From a virus, in IMG/VR virus record IMGVR_UViG_3300030106_001568, positions 1 to 31,329 of that record: DNA of 31,329 bases, one strand, 5' to 3'. Within the stretch, counting starts at the first letter, position 1; the number at the start of each line of letters is the position of its first letter. Below the pieces are notes generated by a model. The model saw nothing but the letters and a program-made list of their open reading frames with translations, was not told where the DNA came from and made no database searches. Of this stretch, positions 12,658-30,274 are shown piece by piece. The translations under genes were made by a program, and so were the position numbers.

Positions 12658-13080
12658 TTAGGGAAGTTCAGTTGTCCAGATAGGGCCTATTTCTTCTAAT
12701 ATGGGTTGTACTCCTTGTTTAGTTACACTAGGTAACTGTTTATAGAAATACATTATTTTTACACCTTTGACAAGTGTTGGTTGTTTAACAAAGTTAAATC
12801 CTTGCCATTTAAGCCAGTTAATAGACATTTTGTTTTCACAAGTTATGTAGTTACCAAGAAAGCTATAGTGTTCTTCGAGATAAGCTAACCATCTTTTATT
12901 CTTCTTTAGAAAATCTATATAATGTTTTTTTAGTAAGTCAGATGCAAGAAACCATATCCTGCCATGTAGAAGTTTTTGTGATGTAGGCATAACACCAAAT
13001 ATACCAACAATGTTTTGATCATCATTGAAGATGGTATAAGTATGAACATTCTTTAGTTTAGTTCTGAAAGGAAACATCAA
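12658..13080 (-). CDS. T7 gp13-like virion protein (DUF2833, acetyltransferase fold)
   Basis: The visible 140 residues match the T7 internal virion protein A family: 'FGVMPTS', 'RIWFLASDLL' (T7 gp13 has WFVTSD), and 'NYITCENKMSINWLKWQGF', the equivalent of a GNAT acetyl-CoA-binding C-half. The first usable start is TTG at 13080 or ATG at 13077. The same frame stays open upstream to 13203 and encodes family-like sequence, including 'EDCWRLAPNIRQIDKYEIAL' and 'WGVDPLQAL'. The true protein is therefore probably about 180 residues, with no ATG, GTG or TTG to start it; ATA codons at 13200 and 13194 are possible. In T7 the gene lies after gp12; here it precedes the capsid gene. Confidence 0.72.
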   Translation of the reverse strand: MMFPFRTKLKNVHTYTIFNDDQNIVGIFGVMPTSQKLLHGRIWFLASDLLKKHYIDFLKKNKRWLAYLEEHYSFLGNYITCENKMSINWLKWQGFNFVKQPTLVKGVKIMYFYKQLPSVTKQGVQPILEEIGPIWTTELP

Positions 13081-22097: not shown

Positions 22098-22135
22098 AGA
22101 GTTCCTCTTACATTTTCTTCTCCAGCAAAAATGGT

Positions 22136-22145
22136 GGGGGGGGGG
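22136..22145 (+). repeat. G10 homopolymer tract
   Basis: Ten consecutive G residues lie 45 bases before the first early gene, in otherwise A+T-rich DNA. Such a tract can slip in replication; it may also be an assembly or sequencing artefact. Confidence 0.8.
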
Positions 22146-22189
22146 ATGTTAATAAATTTAGATAATAATAATATGAAAGGATAAATAAT

Positions 22190-22750
22190 ATGACTAAATT
22201 TAAATATACTAAATATGAATCAATTAATCATTTAACTGAATCACTCAAGTTGGTGTTGTCAGAGGATTTGTTTGAGCCTCGCTCAAATGCGAACCCTCAG
22301 TATTACAAGAACGCACCACGTGAGATGCTGAATTCATTTATAATTACTATTGCTTATAGGCTAACATCTGTAAACAATAAAATACATGGAACAGCAACTC
22401 AGAAATCCTTGAAGGAGCAGAAGAAATTCATCGACAATAATGGTGTAGATTCTGATGTTCAAATGCAACGCAAGGATGATATTAATCATGATTGCCAAGA
22501 GTATGACCAAAACCAGATGATACTCAGGGAGATGCATGAGGCATTCAGTAAACTATATGTTGAGCTATACAATGCAGAACATGTGATGCCTGCACCGAAA
22601 CCAGCACAAACAAATCTTCGTGCTTATGCTCAGCAGTTGGCGAATACCAATGCGGGCAGGATAGCCGCTGGTGAGGAATCACTCACACGTGCAGAGATGG
22701 ACGCGGCAATTCAAGAAATGGCAAATACATTATCTAATAATACTATATAA
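22190..22750 (+). CDS. First early gene, hypothetical protein
   Basis: 186 residues, soluble, mostly helical, no family recognised. It opens 'MTKFKYTKYESINHLTESLK', has a charged centre and ends in a helix with 'ESLTRAEMDAAIQEMANTL'. The ribosome binding site is AAAGGA, 8 bases before the ATG. It is the first rightward gene after the divergence region, and a hairpin (22764-22797) follows its stop directly. That layout suits an early regulator or host-takeover protein, but this is position only. Confidence 0.65.
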   Translation: MTKFKYTKYESINHLTESLKLVLSEDLFEPRSNANPQYYKNAPREMLNSFIITIAYRLTSVNNKIHGTATQKSLKEQKKFIDNNGVDSDVQMQRKDDINHDCQEYDQNQMILREMHEAFSKLYVELYNAEHVMPAPKPAQTNLRAYAQQLANTNAGRIAAGEESLTRAEMDAAIQEMANTLSNNTI

Positions 22751-22763
22751 TGTAATACCAATA

Positions 22764-22797
22764 CCACCTTACCCCCTATATTTAGGGGGTTGGGTGG
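22764..22797 (+). terminator. Strong hairpin after first early gene
   Basis: CCACC and CCCCCTA pair with TAGGGGG and GGTGG around a 4-base loop (TATT), 14 bases after the stop. It is followed by CAAAATTTTG rather than a clean U-run, so it is a terminator or attenuator candidate. Confidence 0.5.
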
Positions 22798-22842
22798 CAA
22801 AATTTTGTGCTTCGCTTCGCTACGCACAAAATTTTGGTTATG

Positions 22843-23011
22843 TTGTGTTCGCATGGCTCACGCGCGCTCGAAGAATGGCACCCCAGGGGGTGGCCATTCT
22901 TCTCGCGCTAAGTCTAATGTTCACTGCGTGATCATCATTGTGTTCGTTGGCACTCACGGGCATTGTCAATCCTTGTAGGATTGTCATGCGTTCGTTGTGT
23001 TCGCTACGCTC
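22843..23011 (+). repeat. Three spaced direct repeats, TTGTGTTCG...CTCAC
   Basis: TTGTGTTCG occurs at 22843, 22939 and 22995, each time followed within 4-6 bases by GCTCAC or CACTCAC. The copies lie between the hairpins of the noncoding island. They could be protein-binding iterons or repeated RNA modules. Confidence 0.6.
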
Positions 23012-23195
23012 ACCGTTGCTGCACCTCTGTACCTAGGTGGTCCAGGGCGAATATAACGGCTTGTACTTTGCTGGGTTTGTGTGCTACAGATTTTTTGTAG
23101 TGGTTCTGTCGCCCTACCCAGCAACGGCTTGCCTTATTAGGCACTAACGTCTTGCAGTTTTTTCCACAAGATTCAGCAAGACTTTCTTTAACCAT

Positions 23196-23250
23196 ATGTT
23201 AATGAACTACCATTAATATATAATATAAATACCATAAACATAGGAGAAGA
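23196..23250 (+). promoter_or_regulatory. Possible early promoter and ribosome binding site
   Basis: An A+T-rich leader contains TATAAT at 23219-23224 but no good -35 box. AGGAGAAG follows at 23242-23249, just before the ATG at 23254. Confidence 0.35.
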
Positions 23251-23253
23251 ATT

Positions 23254-23628
23254 ATGGAACTATTCGATATACTAACTAAAAATAATTGGATGACAGCTGC
23301 TGAATTCTACAAGCTGTCCGACAACTACCAACTTACTCAAGCTGGCAAACAATCAGATGGTATTGCACACGTCAAACTATTCAATGCGACTGGTGCAGGC
23401 ACATGGTTTGTTGGCGAGATGAATGCTGAAGATGGTCATATGTTTGGCAAGGCACACATCTTCGAGCTAGAGTATGGGTATTCATCCATGCTCGAACTAG
23501 TAGATGCACATATGGAGGGTGTCATGGTACTTGAACGTGATCGGCATTGGACCCCAATGCCTCTGAAGGATATCAACTTGGACCACGTATACCCTTTGCA
23601 TGAGCATGTCGAAATGTATTCTAACTAA
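23254..23628 (+). CDS. DUF2958-like protein
   Basis: 124 residues. The core matches the DUF2958 pattern: 'GAGTWFVGEMNAEDGHMFG' (usual form TW...E..PED...FG), then 'ELEYGYSSMLEL' (ELGYVSL.EL) and 'VLERDRHW' (IERD..F). Members are found on plasmids and phages; function unknown. It has a good Shine-Dalgarno and an A+T-rich leader with a TATAAT box. It starts a second rightward block after the noncoding island. Confidence 0.7.
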   Translation: MELFDILTKNNWMTAAEFYKLSDNYQLTQAGKQSDGIAHVKLFNATGAGTWFVGEMNAEDGHMFGKAHIFELEYGYSSMLELVDAHMEGVMVLERDRHWTPMPLKDINLDHVYPLHEHVEMYSN

Positions 23629-23639
23629 TGGAGGTAACA

Positions 23640-23978
23640 ATGAGTACAAGAGAAAACTATAAAGATAACGTAGTAGCATACAAAGAATGGCTAACCAAAG
23701 ATGTGGTTGCTGAATTTTGTAGGCAGATGGATATGGTTGAGCTTGTAGATATGTTCAAGACTATTCAGAAAGAACGTACTGCAGCTTCAAAAGCATTGTG
23801 TAAGACGCATCTTAAGTCAGTGCCAAAACCAAAGGTACGTGTCCGTGCTGGCAAAGACTTGGATAACACTAGAGAAGGTGTACTTGAGAAAGTGAACGTC
23901 AAGTACGCCGTTGTCAGAATGGATACTGGTGCTAAGTTTAATGTACCATTCACATTGATTGAGTGTATACATGAGTAA
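23640..23978 (+). CDS. Hypothetical protein with C-terminal beta-barrel-like motif
   Basis: 112 residues from the ATG at 23640, which has GGAGG 7 bases upstream; an in-frame ATG at 23628 lies before that site. The N-half is helical. The C-half 'EGVLEKVNVKYAVVRMDTGA' then 'KFNVPFTLIE' resembles a short KOW/SH3-like segment ('G.V.KVN.KYA.V....G....VP') seen in many small phage proteins. Function unknown. Confidence 0.62.
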   Translation: MSTRENYKDNVVAYKEWLTKDVVAEFCRQMDMVELVDMFKTIQKERTAASKALCKTHLKSVPKPKVRVRAGKDLDNTREGVLEKVNVKYAVVRMDTGAKFNVPFTLIECIHE

Positions 23979-24072
23979 ACTTCAAGCACTGTATGTTGCA
24001 GTAGTTATAGTGGGAGTTATCCCACTATGGCTGCTAGCTATGATATCAACTGTAATATTTTTTATGGAGTAA
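23971..24072 (+). CDS. 33-residue single-pass membrane peptide
   Basis: ATG at 23971 overlaps the end of the previous gene by 8 bases; TAA is at 24070-24072, three bases before the next ATG. The product, MSKLQALYVAVVIVGVIPLW and 13 more residues, is nearly all one hydrophobic helix (residues 7-31). The tight spacing supports a real gene. Tiny early membrane proteins in phages often act on host membrane proteins or exclude other phages; nothing here shows which. Confidence 0.5.
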   Translation: MSKLQALYVAVVIVGVIPLWLLAMISTVIFFME

Positions 24073-24075
24073 ATT

Positions 24076-24414
24076 ATGACAAAACAAATTGGTAGTGAAG
24101 ATTGGTTTGACTCACACGTTGTTGTGTTGTCAGACGTAGCTGGAGAGAAAGGCGCTCTTCATGAAAAAATCAAAGACATGGTATACGAGAAAGCTAGAAA
24201 AGATGAGTTCGAGGAATGGGTATGGGTAACTCTGAACGAGCAGTGTGAAGAGATCCGATCTCAAGAGCAGCTTGAAAGCTATGTATACAATGAGTATGAC
24301 AAAACTTTGCTAGAAAAATTTGGCGCAAAGTTTGTCAGAGAAACATGTGGTTATGCATTTGAAGTTCATTACGAAAGGCAAATGGACTTTATGAATGACC
24401 AAAGAGATAACTGA
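24076..24414 (+). CDS. Acidic hypothetical protein
   Basis: 112 residues, acidic, helical, rich in E, D, W and Y ('KARKDEFEEWVWVTLNEQCE'). No family recognised. GGAG lies 6 bases before the ATG. Its last codons form the left arm of the first hairpin of the noncoding island that follows, so its mRNA 3' end is probably folded. Confidence 0.62.
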   Translation: MTKQIGSEDWFDSHVVVLSDVAGEKGALHEKIKDMVYEKARKDEFEEWVWVTLNEQCEEIRSQEQLESYVYNEYDKTLLEKFGAKFVRETCGYAFEVHYERQMDFMNDQRDN

Positions 24415-24668
24415 TTAGTAGTACGGTGTATCACGGTTAAGCTAATCAGTTATAGTACAGTAGAGCTGAAGAGAATTCTGTACACTACTGTACTAACGGC
24501 TTGGTGTAGTGGATTAAGGAGTGGCTGACCAATCGCTCGGCTAGCTCTGATGCAGATGATGTAACAGCACTCACGGAGTGAACAGCACTACATCAAGTCG
24601 TGCATGCTTATGGTGGCACAGGTCGGAGGTGTACTTTTATATTATTATTACCTCGCAGAAGTGCCACC
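24407..24668 (+). ncRNA. Candidate structured RNA with four strong stems
   Basis: Between the stop at 24414 and the ATG at 24703 there is no gene. Stems: ATAACTGATTAG/CTAATCAGTTAT (12 bp, 24407-24418 and 24442-24453); AGTACAGTAG/CTACTGTACT (10 bp, 24454-24463 and 24485-24494); a 16-pair helix, 24496-24511 with 24586-24601, enclosing CACTC/GAGTG (24568-24580); and GGTGGCAC/GTGCCACC (8 bp, 24612-24619 and 24661-24668) enclosing GAGGT/ACCTC. The 16-pair helix has two G·U pairs in the + strand that would be mismatches in the other strand. I recognise no Rfam-type family. Confidence 0.55.
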
Positions 24669-24702
24669 ACCATTATTAACAATCAACTTGGAGATAAATT
24701 AA

Positions 24703-25113
24703 ATGGGTATTATAAATAAAACACTATTAGAAGTAACGACTCGTGTTTGGAACAGTGCTTATCGCAAGGTTTTTCTATCGAAAGAACAAGTATGGTCAGA
24801 AGATCAAGAAGTGTGCATAGATCTATGTTCTATATACACAACTCTAGAAGAATGGAGAGACTTTATCGATAAGCATGGTGAACATACATGGAGTATCACA
24901 GATCTGGACGATTACTTTAGTATTGATATTGCTGAGATGTTTTGGGAAAAACAAGATCAAAATGGCAATCACTCTATTGTACACGTCGACGATATTATCG
25001 ATGTAAAAGAGGCTCATTGGACAACTAGAGACACAGCTGTCAAGAGAGCAGAGCTTTTAGCTGAAGGTAAGAAGTATCCAGGGGAGGAGGAGTTACATGC
25101 AGAAAAAGTATGA
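24703..25113 (+). CDS. Hypothetical protein
   Basis: 136 residues, acidic, with many Trp and Asp. It has repeated 'W..TDLDDYFSIDIAEMFW'-like stretches and a helical C-terminus. No family recognised. TTGGAG precedes the ATG. The end overlaps the next gene by 17 bases, so it is co-translated with the recombination module. Confidence 0.62.
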   Translation: MGIINKTLLEVTTRVWNSAYRKVFLSKEQVWSEDQEVCIDLCSIYTTLEEWRDFIDKHGEHTWSITDLDDYFSIDIAEMFWEKQDQNGNHSIVHVDDIIDVKEAHWTTRDTAVKRAELLAEGKKYPGEEELHAEKV

Positions 25114-25336
25114 TTACTATGTGTATCCTAGCTTGATCGTGCTAGATGAAGCAGAGGTACACAAATATTTTGGTATCGGTGGCGCAGGTCGTAGAGCATT
25201 TGCTCACGACTATGCGTATAGTATGCCGATTGAAATATACAAGTACGATATAAACGAAGGACAATTTGTAGAAAGGATGGAGGAATGGGAAAAGCAAGAA
25301 ACAGTACCCCAAACGTTACCGAAGGTAGACACTTAG
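25097..25336 (+). CDS. Small hypothetical protein
   Basis: 79 residues with a 'YVYPSLIVLDEAEVHKYFG' start and 'GIGGAGRRAFAHDYAYSMPI' centre. No known family. The ribosome binding site GGAGGAGG is very strong. Its last 52 bases overlap the start of the exonuclease gene in another frame; both genes have good start signals, so both look real. Confidence 0.58.
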   Translation: MQKKYDYYVYPSLIVLDEAEVHKYFGIGGAGRRAFAHDYAYSMPIEIYKYDINEGQFVERMEEWEKQETVPQTLPKVDT

Positions 25337-25905
25337 GTATAGGTGGTAGTGATTGTTATACTCTATGTCATGGGAAACCAGCTGATGTTGATCGGTTATG
25401 GGAAGAGAAACGTCAGCTGGTTGAACCAGTTGATCTATCAGAGAACTTTCGTGTACGTCTTGGTACATACACAGAAGAGTTTAACAGAAAAATTTTCTAT
25501 GAAAAGATGGCAAAGAAAGAGAAGTGTACACCGGAAGGGTATCAACGTGGTATATATCCTATTGCTACATCAAGGACAGTCAATACAAAGTACGGACCAG
25601 TACCATTGTTTGCACACCTTGATGACTATGACCACGAAGATGATGTAGTAATTGAGTACAAACATACATCGGAGAGTAAGTTAGTACGTGATGTGGTTGA
25701 AACATACAATCCACAAGTACAACATTACATGCATGTAACTAATTCTGATACTGCTTACTTGTCTATTATATTTGGTAATGCACGGCACTCTATCAAGAAG
25801 ATACCTAGAGATCCTATATTCATAGAAGAATTAAAGCATTTACAAGGTAAGTTTTGGAAATGTGTTGTTGATAACACAAGACCTTCTACACTTATCGGTA
25901 AATAA
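25285..25905 (+). CDS. YqaJ-type phage recombination exonuclease
   Basis: 206 residues with the PD-(D/E)XK viral recombinase layout: 'LGIGGSDC' at 17-24, 'RLGTYTEEFNRKIFYEK' at 58-74 (catalytic Glu), 'FAHLDDYD' at 109-116 (Asp), 'VIEYKHTSE' at 122-130 (E124-x-K126) and 'QVQHYM' at 144-149 (the Q..HY motif). It would chew 5' ends of duplex DNA to expose single strands for the annealing protein encoded next. GGAGG lies before the ATG. Confidence 0.85.
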   Translation: MGKARNSTPNVTEGRHLGIGGSDCYTLCHGKPADVDRLWEEKRQLVEPVDLSENFRVRLGTYTEEFNRKIFYEKMAKKEKCTPEGYQRGIYPIATSRTVNTKYGPVPLFAHLDDYDHEDDVVIEYKHTSESKLVRDVVETYNPQVQHYMHVTNSDTAYLSIIFGNARHSIKKIPRDPIFIEELKHLQGKFWKCVVDNTRPSTLIGK

Positions 25906-25939
25906 TGATATAGTAATAATAAAGAAAGGATTAAATATT

Positions 25940-26368
25940 ATGTCAAAAACACCTTATGCTGAGAAGCTAATCAAGAAGTTTAAAACTAAGTACGGTCTAG
26001 CTGGATCAGACTTCTGGCCTCTAAAGTTAGGAGGCAGAGAACAATGGATTATAAATCATAATGCATTGGAACGTGTAGCACTACAAGAAGAGATCTCTTG
26101 GAGTATTGAAGTACTTAACTTTGCACCAGATGTGGTTGTCAAAGCAACGGCTTCACATCCTAGGACTGGAGCTACCATACAAAGTTTGGGTGAGGCTGGA
26201 CCAAAAACTACTAAGAATGCTTATCTGTATGCTATGGCAGAGAAACGTGCTGTCGATAGATGTATACTAAAGCTATTGAATGCACATGCATACTTGTATA
26301 CAGATCAAGATGCAGATGAATTCAAACAAAAAGATGAAGAAGAAACATGGAAGGAGCAAGTAAAATGA
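25940..26368 (+). CDS. Putative single-strand annealing protein (Rad52-like)
   Basis: 142 residues from the ATG at 25940, which has AAAGGA upstream; an earlier in-frame ATG lies inside the exonuclease gene. The sequence has 'EQWIINHNALERVALQEEIS', then a beta-rich middle ('VVVKATASHPRTGATIQSLG') and the helix 'KNAYLYAMAEKRAVDRCILK'. The '(Y)AMAEKRA.DR..LKL' helix recurs in small phage proteins next to exonuclease and SSB genes and resembles that of Rad52/DdrA-type annealing proteins. Context (exonuclease, SSB, resolvase) supports the role. Catalytic proof is not possible from sequence. Confidence 0.62.
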   Translation: MSKTPYAEKLIKKFKTKYGLAGSDFWPLKLGGREQWIINHNALERVALQEEISWSIEVLNFAPDVVVKATASHPRTGATIQSLGEAGPKTTKNAYLYAMAEKRAVDRCILKLLNAHAYLYTDQDADEFKQKDEEETWKEQVK

Positions 26369-26712
26369 TAGAGTGGGATGAAGATTTGGATCGAGTAGAG
26401 AATGAACTGAACGAGTTGATTGCTAAAAAGAAACAAAGGCAGAGTGAGTTGTGGGACATACTCAAGTCAGAGGATACTGGTGAGTATATCTTAGCAAACT
26501 ATTTATTCGCACCACAGTTTATTGGACTGGAGGCTGCAATACGTAATGCAGTTACTAAGACAGACCTTAATCGTATTTGGAAATCATACAAACTAACCTT
26601 GAATGTAATCAAGAATAGTAATGAAAGGTTATTGTATGATGTACTTGAATGGCAATACAAGAGAGAGTTAGATCATGTATCAACAAAGACTGAAACAACT
26701 AAAGGATCGTAG
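26365..26712 (+). CDS. Hypothetical helical protein in recombination operon
   Basis: 115 residues from the ATG at 26365, which overlaps the previous TGA (ATGA) and has GGAG upstream. It begins with a coiled-coil-like stretch ('DRVENELNELIAKKKQRQSE') and ends Lys/Thr-rich. No family recognised. It overlaps the next gene by 38 bases. A partner of the annealing or replication proteins is possible, from position only. Confidence 0.6.
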   Translation: MIEWDEDLDRVENELNELIAKKKQRQSELWDILKSEDTGEYILANYLFAPQFIGLEAAIRNAVTKTDLNRIWKSYKLTLNVIKNSNERLLYDVLEWQYKRELDHVSTKTETTKGS

Positions 26713-27139
26713 GCAATATTTGAACTACACTTTAGAACAACTAGCACATCTTATTGGTGTATCAGATAAGATGATAGGTAAATGGGAAAGAGCAGAGGCT
26801 GTACCAAATATGATGAACTTCGAGGCATGGTGTAATGCACTAGACTTGACTGTAATATTATCAGCAGAAACGTCTTGCGTTGATGATTGGCAGCCGAACA
26901 CAGATTTTCTAAACGAACTTAAACAATTAACGAGAGGTATAAATTATGAATACGAAATTGCAAACTTCAGAGATTGGTACAAATCCAAAGGAGAAAGATC
27001 AGCAGACTGGAACGCACTCTTCAGAATGTGGATCCGTCGGTCTCAAAGATTTAACAGTAAAGCAACAAATGATGATGCGAACAATACCGAGATTCTTTCT
27101 ACCGTTGCTGAGCGAATGCATGCTGATAAGAATATATGA
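26675..27139 (+). CDS. XRE-type HTH protein with DnaT-like C-terminus
   Basis: 154 residues. Residues 5-60 are a Cro/C1 helix-turn-helix: 'TLEQLAHLIGVSDKMIGKWE' with 'VPNMMNFEAWCNAL'. Residues 98-122, 'FRDWYKSKGERSADWNALFR' plus 'MWIRR', match the 'F..YW..KG....DW...WR.W.R' motif at the C-terminus of phage replication initiators and DnaT-like proteins. The combination suggests an origin-binding replication initiator rather than a simple repressor. It overlaps the previous gene by 38 bases. A pure transcription regulator remains possible. Confidence 0.68.
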   Translation: MYQQRLKQLKDRRQYLNYTLEQLAHLIGVSDKMIGKWERAEAVPNMMNFEAWCNALDLTVILSAETSCVDDWQPNTDFLNELKQLTRGINYEYEIANFRDWYKSKGERSADWNALFRMWIRRSQRFNSKATNDDANNTEILSTVAERMHADKNI

Positions 27140-27149
27140 GCTAAAGTTT

Positions 27150-27518
27150 ATGTCAAACAGACCAGAGTTTAACCCATGTGTACCGATAGATATAGAAATC
27201 AATCACATGATACCACATCTACATGAGGCTATACGTAAGCCATCATATGGTGAGGTAGCTCTACAACTAACAAGATTATCTAACGTCTTGCAGTGCCAGC
27301 TTCCAAGTGAGGAAGGATTACAAGAGTACTTCAAGATACTAGCAGAGTTTCCTTTAGTATTACTAGAGGAATGTATTGAGTACATAATACAGACAGCAAG
27401 GTATCGGAAGTTACCTTTGCCCATCGACTTTATTGCTCATATGGAAATATCTAGAACTGTACATGTTACATGGCTAGATAGATTAGAAAGACTATACATC
27501 AACTATAAGGAGAAATGA
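27150..27518 (+). CDS. Putative helicase loader / replisome organiser-like protein
   Basis: 122 residues from the ATG at 27150. Longer starts would lie inside the HTH gene, and an ATG at 27120 is also possible. The body is helical: 'LPSEEGLQEYFKILAEFPLV' then 'ECIEYIIQTARYRKLPLPID'. The 'Y...L...P......A......R...LP.P..F' pattern is typical of small phage proteins that recruit host helicase. Position between an initiator-like gene and SSB supports this. No ATPase motif is present, so it is not a DnaC-type loader. Confidence 0.5.
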   Translation: MSNRPEFNPCVPIDIEINHMIPHLHEAIRKPSYGEVALQLTRLSNVLQCQLPSEEGLQEYFKILAEFPLVLLEECIEYIIQTARYRKLPLPIDFIAHMEISRTVHVTWLDRLERLYINYKEK

Positions 27519-27519
27519 T

Positions 27520-27933
27520 ATGTATAATTGTATAACACTAGTGGGTAACATTGGTGGTGAAAGTAGATTTGAAACGACTGGTGGGGGTAAGCCTTACGCA
27601 ATCTGTTCTCTCGCCACGCACCGGTATGCAGGTGGCGAGAAGAAAACAGATTGGCATAAGATTATTTTTTGGGATGAGAAGAAGGTAGATGTACTGAAGA
27701 AGTACACAAGAGTGGGTAGTAAGATACTCGTTCAAGGGTATCTGACGTACAACAGTTGGGAACGTGATGGTGTAACGCAGAAGTCATCAGAGATACACGT
27801 TGGCTATGGTGGTGCTATCGAACTGCTAGATAGCAAAGGTGATCATACCAGTGTGCCAACTGCCAACACTTCTAATCCACCAGAGGGTGTGCAGAATATT
27901 AAAGATGAAGAACTAGATGCGATACCATTCTAG
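27520..27933 (+). CDS. ssb: Single-stranded DNA-binding protein
   Basis: 137 residues with the bacterial SSB OB-fold signature: 'ITLVGNIGGESRFETTGGGK', 'SLATHRY', 'TDWHKIIFWDEKKVDVLKKY', 'GSKILVQGYLTYNSWERDG' and 'EIHVG'. A flexible linker and the acidic tip 'DEELDAIPF' follow, equivalent to the E. coli DDDIPF tail that recruits partner proteins. Start one base after the upstream TGA, with AAGGAG. It would protect single strands in replication and annealing. Confidence 0.93.
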   Translation: MYNCITLVGNIGGESRFETTGGGKPYAICSLATHRYAGGEKKTDWHKIIFWDEKKVDVLKKYTRVGSKILVQGYLTYNSWERDGVTQKSSEIHVGYGGAIELLDSKGDHTSVPTANTSNPPEGVQNIKDEELDAIPF

Positions 27934-27941
27934 GAGGCCCT

Positions 27942-28208
27942 ATGTTTAATATATACGAACACCATAAAGTCAAGGTACTTACAAAAAGACAGTCAGAAGT
28001 TTATAACTTTGTTGTCAAGTACGTTGAAGAGAATAGGATTGCACCCACCTATCACGAGATCAAAGATGGGTGTGATCTAGGAAGTATTGCAAACTCTTAT
28101 CGTATTATCAAAGATTTAATTACTAAGAAGTTAATACATAAGATTGGCAAGACACAACAACCGAGGCAGGTATATCCTATCATCGATGAAAAATATATAA
28201 GAGATTGA
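27942..28208 (+). CDS. LexA-like winged-helix DNA-binding protein
   Basis: 88 residues equal to the LexA N-terminal domain: 'LTKRQSEVYNFVVKYVEENR', 'IAPTYHEI' and 'SIANSYRIIKDLITKKLI'. The S24 self-cleavage peptidase domain is absent, so it cannot be cut in an SOS response. GGAGG lies before the ATG. It may repress early phage genes or occupy host LexA sites. Both are inferences. Confidence 0.78.
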   Translation: MFNIYEHHKVKVLTKRQSEVYNFVVKYVEENRIAPTYHEIKDGCDLGSIANSYRIIKDLITKKLIHKIGKTQQPRQVYPIIDEKYIRD

Positions 28209-28209
28209 T

Positions 28210-28572
28210 ATGGGTGGATCTAGCTCAAAGCGAAAAGGATACAGAGTAGAGAATGAACTAGTCAAGTATCTTATCAAGAGAGGGATTGATGCAAAGCGCC
28301 AACCCCTCTCTGGTGCCTTATCGGATTTTCCACACGATATACAAATCAACAATCCTAGATTAGTTGTTGAAGTGAAGGCAAGGAAATCCGGCAGTGGTTT
28401 CAAAACTATACTCAACTGGATGGGTAAAGCTGACGTGTTAGTTATGAAACAAGATTATGATGATCCAATAGTAGCTATGCCTATGGGTGTATTTGTAGAT
28501 CTAATTGTTAGCCATGCAGACTACGAACCACCATATATACAAAAATTAAAGGAAATAAAGAAACAGTCCTAG
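28210..28572 (+). CDS. Hjc-like Holliday junction resolvase
   Basis: 120 residues with an archaeal-Hjc-type PD-(D/E)XK nuclease core: Glu14 in 'GYRVENELVKYL', 'RQPLSGALSDFPHDI' with Asp43, and 'VVEVKAR' with Glu54-x-Lys56. Then 'LNWMGKADVLVM' follows, the usual structural strand-helix. It would resolve branched DNA before packaging and completes the exonuclease/annealing/SSB module. It is the last rightward gene and overlaps the convergent membrane-protein gene by 27 bases. Confidence 0.82.
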   Translation: MGGSSSKRKGYRVENELVKYLIKRGIDAKRQPLSGALSDFPHDIQINNPRLVVEVKARKSGSGFKTILNWMGKADVLVMKQDYDDPIVAMPMGVFVDLIVSHADYEPPYIQKLKEIKKQS

Positions 28573-29075: not shown

Positions 29076-30274
29076 ATCATTCCATCCAGTTGTTGTCGTA
29101 ATCTATATCTTTGCTCTTGATTATCCCTAATATTACTATTGTATGTGGTCAATGGATCATTAGCTTGATAAGTTACATTCATATAAATATCACGATTGTC
29201 AGATAAGTTCAACTGATTAGGATATAAAATTACTGGTTCATAGAATACTGTGTCTGTAATCATTGGCTGTGATTCAATCATAACTTCAAGAGCAAATGCA
29301 TTGGAATCTATCAGTTGTTCTGTAAGGGATAATTCTATGTCGCCATTTTTATTTATTGAGACCAGGGATGTAACGGCTTGCGTTTCTGTATTTTGCTCCT
29401 CCAAAGATTTTTCTTCTTCAATTATTTCTTCTTCTAATATTTCTTGCTCAAGTTCTTCTGTTTCTTCTTCTATAAATTCTTCTTCAATATAATCTAACAC
29501 CTCTTCAGTTGTTATTTCTTCATCAAACTCTTCTTCAATATCTGGTAGTTCATTCTCTATCATAGGCATTTCTTCTTCAAGTAAATATATATCTTCATCA
29601 AAAGTATAGTAATCATCAAACAACTCTACTGGTTCTGTTTCAAACTCATCAATATAAATAAATGTATCTTCTTCAAAAAACAAATCAAATTCTTCTAACC
29701 ACTCTTCGACAAAGCTTGTAGTAAAACTAAAGGTAACTGGTTCATAACTCACAAACAATTCTGGATTACGTACATCAGCAGCATAATGATAGTTAGGTCG
29801 AGATGGTACAGAAAAACTAAACCGTGCAGTTATATCATAGTCATCAGCCACATCATTAATAATAATTGTATTAGTAGGAGAATCTTCATACCAGCATCCA
29901 TTCCATCTATTGCAAGTGCCAGACATTGTAATAGTGTTAGTGTACTCAAGACCATTAGAATCAACTATCTCCTGCGTAAGATCAACTGACTGGCTATAAG
30001 AATTCCAAAACCAAACCTCTGCTTGGAATTGTGATTGAGTTACTCCTTGTATCTCGTAAGCTTCGAGGTGATCGGAGAGAGTAATAGTTTGCTCACGGTA
30101 TTCATTATGAACACCAGCCAAAATATTAGGCCCATGAAAGTGATCATTAGTACCAGTCCAATCATTAAGAAAGTTATTGGAAAGTAAATTATCCGTAACG
30201 TCTGCATTTGTCTTTACAGTTACAAGTACTAGGGCAAGGAAGGATATAAGGAATAAGTATACCAAGCATCTCAT
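29063..30274 (-). CDS. Exported protein with Glu-rich domain
   Basis: 403 residues. A Sec signal peptide (residues 1-24, hydrophobic core 'LVYLFLISFLALVLVTV', likely cleavage after 'KTNA') is followed by a beta-rich domain, about 25-185, with 'DWTGTNDHFHGPNI' and a Cys pair C121/C127. Residues 189-294 are hyperacidic, dominated by Glu in clusters of two to four. A C-terminal domain (300-403) ends with a charged helix. The start overlaps the upstream TGA (ATGA). Envelope or lysis role is suggested by signal and position. No enzyme motif is seen. Confidence 0.68.
   Translation of the reverse strand: MRCLVYLFLISFLALVLVTVKTNADVTDNLLSNNFLNDWTGTNDHFHGPNILAGVHNEYREQTITLSDHLEAYEIQGVTQSQFQAEVWFWNSYSQSVDLTQEIVDSNGLEYTNTITMSGTCNRWNGCWYEDSPTNTIIINDVADDYDITARFSFSVPSRPNYHYAADVRNPELFVSYEPVTFSFTTSFVEEWLEEFDLFFEEDTFIYIDEFETEPVELFDDYYTFDEDIYLLEEEMPMIENELPDIEEEFDEEITTEEVLDYIEEEFIEEETEELEQEILEEEIIEEEKSLEEQNTETQAVTSLVSINKNGDIELSLTEQLIDSNAFALEVMIESQPMITDTVFYEPVILYPNQLNLSDNRDIYMNVTYQANDPLTTYNSNIRDNQEQRYRLRQQLDGMIWIN

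Follow-up and report, generated by a model that had tools for sequence, protein, structure and literature searches.

A modular, stop-codon-anchored hairpin array in an intercistronic spacer of the early operon of a phage related to Pelagibacter phage Hodr

Between two early genes of the marine phage sequence studied here lies a non-coding gap of 288 nt (24415-24702), running from the TGA of one gene to the ATG of the next at 24703, whose + strand folds into a row of four structures, H1 to H4. It is a real RNA element, undescribed so far, and constitutes a modular accessory hairpin array in an intercistronic spacer rather than one fixed RNA family. The structure is in the RNA sense, its pairing is compensated where sequence has changed, it is anchored at a stop codon, its hairpin number is modular, and it holds the same operon position in several phages. 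We tentatively read the array as an element working in cis between cistrons of the polycistronic early mRNA, which could well act post-transcriptionally in end protection or processing and in insulation. Little is known of how SAR11-type phages order their gene expression, and the array offers a concrete control point at the border of the recombination module.

The analyzed stretch (the window) comprises the 31,329 bases of a phage record. Among cultured phages the nearest relative found is Pelagibacter phage EXVC031P Hodr, with 82% identity in the portal protein; Hodr infects SAR11, a group of bacteria highly abundant in the oceans. We would like to note that the Hodr record, OQ414635.1, carries EXVC032PBaldr locus tags though the record is that of EXVC031P Hodr. 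Late genes of the window lie on the - strand and the early operon, which encodes a YqaJ/RecE-like exonuclease and an SSB, on the + strand at 22190-28572; its first gene starts at 22190, so that the H1-H4 spacer sits about 2.2 kb into the operon (Table 1). Contigs L001 and L002, the close relatives, have the same gene order as the window, and in them the 112-aa protein upstream of the spacer is 92% identical at the amino acid level and the 136-aa protein downstream about 50%. The predicted structure of the latter (mean pLDDT 42) was too poor to use, and that of the 25097 protein reached a pLDDT of 66. Elsewhere in the window we observed a ten-G run (TGGTGGGGGGGGGGATG) at 22134-22146, shortly 5' of the first early gene; an unlisted 33-aa membrane-like ORF (MSKLQALYVAVVIVGVIPLWLLAMISTVIFFME) at 23971-24072, resembled by small ORFs that L003 and L014 have in this position; and, antisense inside the SSB-like gene at 27541-27720 on the - strand, the strongest local fold of a 120-nt scan (z = -8.8).

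Table 1. Structures, spacers and genes of the early operon (window coordinates).
Feature	Coordinates	Strand	Description
Second hairpin-packed spacer	22751-23253	+	same operon; z = -7.8
Upstream early gene	24076-24414	+	112 aa, function unknown; TGA (24412-24414) inside H1
H1	24407-24453	+	12-13 bp stem; 21-nt loop with small inner stem; holds stop codon
H2	24453-24495	+	perfect 11-bp stem 24453-24463/24485-24495; 21-nt loop
H3	24496-24601	+	16-pair helix 24496-24511/24586-24601 closing a multibranch interior
H4	24611-24669	+	9-bp stem 24611-24619/24661-24669 plus inner 5-bp GAGGT/ACCTC
Leader	24670-24702	+	33 nt, outside H1-H4; ribosome site TTGGAG of the 24703 gene
Downstream gene	24703-25113	+	136 aa, function unknown; first gene after spacer
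Second gene after spacer	25097-25336	+	function unknown
YqaJ/RecE-like exonuclease gene	25285-25905	+	
SSB-like gene	27520-27933		within early operon

On the + strand, 24400-24702 folds at -105.9 kcal/mol (z = -6.6, with 0 of 100 shuffles as good), and on the - strand at -86.1 kcal/mol (z = -4.0), which bears out the preliminary description of the gap as densely structured. That description had given an uncoded gap of 290 bases, perfect stems of 12, 10 and 8 bp, and a last stem ending 34 bases before the ATG; the gap is indeed uncoded and every stem lies where it was placed, the figures now being 288 nt, 12, 11 and 9 bp, and 33 nt from the 3' end of H4 to the ATG. It had rightly seen the first stem take in the preceding stop codon, the TGA lying inside the perfect 12-bp stem 24407-24418/24442-24453, and had correctly described a 16-pair helix, now in H3, that is imperfect at only two positions, each a G·U on the + strand. 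A short ORF in the gap was considered and rejected: the frame past the TGA is open in the window and closes after 12 codons in L002, so the gap is not coding. The ARAGORN model found no tRNA or tmRNA in the gap, no intrinsic terminator (a G+C-rich stem followed by a T run) occurs within it, and no promoter-like site was found on its + strand. The nucleotide sequence of the window gave chance matches only among the phage records compared. The window and its relatives matched none of the Rfam 15 families at the gathering cut-off, and at E up to 10 only two matches appeared, both far below their cut-offs, in line with the earlier remark that no named RNA family is known with this layout; this sets the element apart from manA, wcaG, PhotoRC-II and GOLLD, which are likewise structured RNA candidates from marine or phage DNA. 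An alternative switch in H3, with GAGUGGCUG pairing CAGCACUC, was dropped because it is broken in L001.

The two G·U pairs had been taken in the preliminary description as a sign of an RNA read in the same direction as the early genes, an argument that is weak when drawn from one helix alone, although the sense itself is upheld by a count over relatives. Wobbles were counted inside stems in a manner favoring neither strand, a G·U on the + strand being a G·U in + RNA and an A·C on the + strand a G·U in - RNA. The stems of the arrays hold 24 G·U and 2 A·C on the + strand, as against about 1:1 (106:122 and 22:20) in control stems elsewhere in the window; some of the loci counted are near-duplicates and a few stems are doubtful, and without those the estimate is approximately 17 to 2, still clearly one-sided. 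Such one-sidedness means that the structure is under selection as RNA in the early-gene sense, and it is strong support for an RNA fold with the polarity of the early genes. A DNA-level element, be it a single-strand origin, a recombination hotspot or a cruciform, is disfavored and hardly credible, since it gives no reason for a wobble bias that the controls lack, nor for anchoring at a stop codon and a ribosome site, even though 24400-24702 also folds as DNA (z = -5.9) and whole hairpins have apparently been exchanged between relatives.

The preliminary description had made pairing across homologues a test of the element, and pairing is in fact kept through compensatory changes. All of H1-H4 are kept in the nearest relative (L001/L002), where H2 and H4 have changed on both sides of many pairs with pairing intact. 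Identity to the close relative is 97% in H1, 57% in H2, 97% and 93% at the two ends of H3, 38% in its middle and 45% in H4; the genes at 23628, 24076 and 25097 are 91-94% identical. Between the window and the close relative 14 of the 22 stem letters of H2 differ, yet the stem is fully paired in both, and in the H2 family (window, L001, L003 and L013; four distinct sequences, a low depth for covariation) changes on both sides affect 8 of 11 pairs, with all cells paired. The H2 alignment was made by hand, RNAalifold on a MAFFT alignment having mis-paired H2 because the stem is replaced. H4, with a depth of two distinct sequences, has 5 of its 14 pairs changed on both sides and every pair intact, the slid controls being 32-54% paired. 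Little covariation comes from H1 and the ends of H3, as these are conserved like the flanking genes (93-97% versus 91-94%). In L001/L002, H1 has one A-U turned to G·U, and H3 has conserved flanks around a replaced middle; in L002, one of the window's two G·U pairs in H3 is G-C and one inner pair is lost. The more distant L040 group shows compensatory change at 2 pairs, with 97.5% of cells paired.

Further contigs were gathered with profiles of the two downstream genes and the exonuclease. At the same junction, L003/L004 have three tandem hairpins, the first holding the TAG of the upstream gene, and L013/L014 have two, the first holding a TAA, while L040-L046 have two hairpins, the stop codon standing a few nt ahead of the first one or at its top; L049, L066, L072-L074, L075, L076 and L078 have arrays of their own or single hairpins. 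The homologous spacers thus contain 2-5 unrelated-looking hairpins in 80-290 nt and fold with z of -2.3 to -7.5, and the stems of the distant relatives share no evident sequence with those of the window. Every array begins with a hairpin that covers the upstream stop codon or stands no more than about 8 nt from it, and between the last hairpin and the next start codon there are usually 15-40 nt. The upstream genes vary among the distant phages, as does the first downstream gene, so that what the array keeps to is the boundary ahead of the recombination module; in L013 and L043 it is followed by a different small gene, which argues for a spacer function and not for a riboswitch serving one particular gene. 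At that junction about nine contigs that are more distant show no gap, which makes the element accessory, and several other intergenic gaps of the same contigs are unstructured (z of +0.7 to -1.2), so that structure is not a property of every gap.

The second hairpin-packed spacer of the window (Table 1) has the layout of the H1-H4 spacer: the TAA at 22748-22750 falls inside the opening hairpin (22726-22754), hairpins tile the gap, and 32 nt separate the last one (23194-23221) from the ATG at 23254. The 9-mer AACGGCTTG has three + copies in the two early spacers (23055, 23123 and 24495), all three located at the 3' foot of hairpins, and it occurs once more at 29372. In L002, the region corresponding to this spacer holds a stem followed by a 12-T run (2133-2178). 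The preliminary description had proposed a novel structured RNA. RNA structure is what we find, but it is not one discrete conserved RNA, given the changing number of dissimilar hairpins, the relatives that lack the gap, and this second spacer.

The loops behave differently from the stems. A 23-nt loop is conserved among L001, L003 and L013 while their stems differ, and the loop is also kept within the L040 group. The H2 loop of the window resembles that of L003 weakly, a nominal similarity reached by 0.3-0.5% of controls, and that of L001 not at all; a covariance model (R1) built from L001, L003 and L013 does not recover the window's H2, and we therefore do not claim sequence homology for this loop. 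An exact loop-motif scan of the genome contigs gave 14 matches, 0 of them a matching hairpin. Complementarity between the loop of an upstream hairpin and a purine-rich stretch that follows the last hairpin directly, before the ribosome site, is present in the L040 group, L013 and L003 (UUCUCCC/GGGAGAA, ACUCCC/GGGAGU and CUUCC/GGAAG, respectively), with the same topology in different letters, and in L013 the loop is able to reach the ribosome site itself as well. Such pairing in three relatives hints at translational control; loop-flank pairing was sought in the window's spacer and none was found.

These contacts bear on the idea that the fold is a translational operator, to which a phage RNA-binding protein, e.g., the operon's SSB or annealing protein, would bind by the ribosome site and so repress the recombination genes. 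T4 gp32 represses its own message in this manner, the gene 32 operator consisting of a pseudoknot and an A-rich unpaired leader (PMC535899). The ribosome site of L013, L003 and L040 lies in an unpaired, A-rich leader that comes after a pseudoknot-like contact, resembling the T4 and RB69 gene 32 operators, in phages that likewise have SSB and recombination genes; the operon encodes an SSB, and loops are kept as stems vary. The window, however, has a far larger spacer (the arrays span 80-290 nt as against about 28 nt for the T4 pseudoknot) with no pseudoknot found, and the gene after the element, here 24703, is not the SSB and changes between phages. We consider such an operator rather unlikely.

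A second known system with hairpins in early phage mRNA is that of the HK022 put RNAs, whose antitermination runs through the zinc-binding domain of the RNA polymerase beta' subunit. The put RNAs are about 70 nt long, consist of two stem-loops, act without a phage protein, and are found at the early promoter or no farther than about 270 nt from it (PMC9378689). H1 and H2 are two adjacent stem-loops of 89 nt in an early operon, but H3 and H4 follow them; like putL and putR the arrays are tandem stem-loops in early phage mRNA that contain no ORF. If put-like, the hairpins would bind host RNA polymerase in the nascent RNA and carry it into the distal early genes. In contrast to the promoter-proximal put sites, the present spacer is in mid-operon, with no promoter-like + site in the gap; hairpin number varies from 2 to 5, and there is no sequence similarity to the phage records compared. 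Position and architecture speak against put membership, and we regard an antiterminator of this kind as very unlikely. It is also improbable that the element is a trans-acting small RNA, excised from the early transcript to serve as an antisense, a decoy or an inhibitor of a host factor. The compact multi-domain fold, the conserved single-stranded loops and the H3 patches kept at 93-97% between replaced segments would suit one; what tells against it is that the element takes in the stop codon of the gene before it, that relatives have exchanged entire hairpins, and that the gap has neither a promoter-like + site nor a terminator.

A cis-acting spacer fits the anchoring to stop codon and ribosome site, the free exchange of hairpins, and the indifference to neighboring genes. 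Tandem hairpins would pack the transcript all the way from the stop codon closing the first cluster to a point shortly ahead of the recombination cluster's ribosome site, the latter cluster consisting of small genes, the YqaJ/RecE-like exonuclease and SSB. There they may block 3'-5' exonucleases, be cut by a double-strand nuclease of the RNase III type, or both, in which case the two gene clusters would decay separately; they might also shield untranslated RNA from RNase E and Rho, and insulate or gate the next ribosome site. In the three relatives with a loop-flank contact, this contact could come apart when a ribosome halts within the first stem. The stems of 11-16 bp are of plausible length for an RNase III site, and a hairpin is indeed found at or just after the stop codon between cistrons. 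REP elements and T7-type RNase III sites are intercistronic hairpins downstream of stop codons. The hairpin of E. coli galE, another case past a stop codon inside an operon, stabilizes the mRNA end (PMC11925234). Unlike all of these, the present gap is tiled with hairpins throughout, occurs in several phage lineages, and has conserved loops. Against the reading as a cis-acting spacer, loop sequence is kept in L001/L003/L013 and within the L040 group beyond what a spacer serving stability alone would require. We would give only a modest chance to the arrays being a new class of phage regulatory RNA, stop-codon-anchored and modular, that sets the timing of recombination-gene expression in marine phages, with exposed loops recruiting a phage or host factor or a loop-to-leader contact sensing terminating ribosomes. 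Family searches miss a recurrent, fast-evolving RNA of this sort because its place and structure are kept and its sequence and hairpin number are not.

Three further structures in the relatives' contigs were noted. In L003, the gap at 1569-1864 before an early gene (start 1865) has very strong structure (z = -9.4) in a long multibranch fold. L042 (802-839) and L044 (77-114) carry, in a dense hairpin cluster, a perfect 11-bp stem with the loop GGGTGGTGGGTGGGTA, which could form a G-quadruplex. Hodr (L008) has its hairpin spacer at 12818-12919; within 12825-12920 of this phage, the 5' arm of the hairpin after gene 022, AGCGATCTTTCA, can be matched by complementarity with the gene 023 ribosome site, TGAAAGGAGATCGCT, a pairing that is an apparent alternative to the hairpin's own stem.
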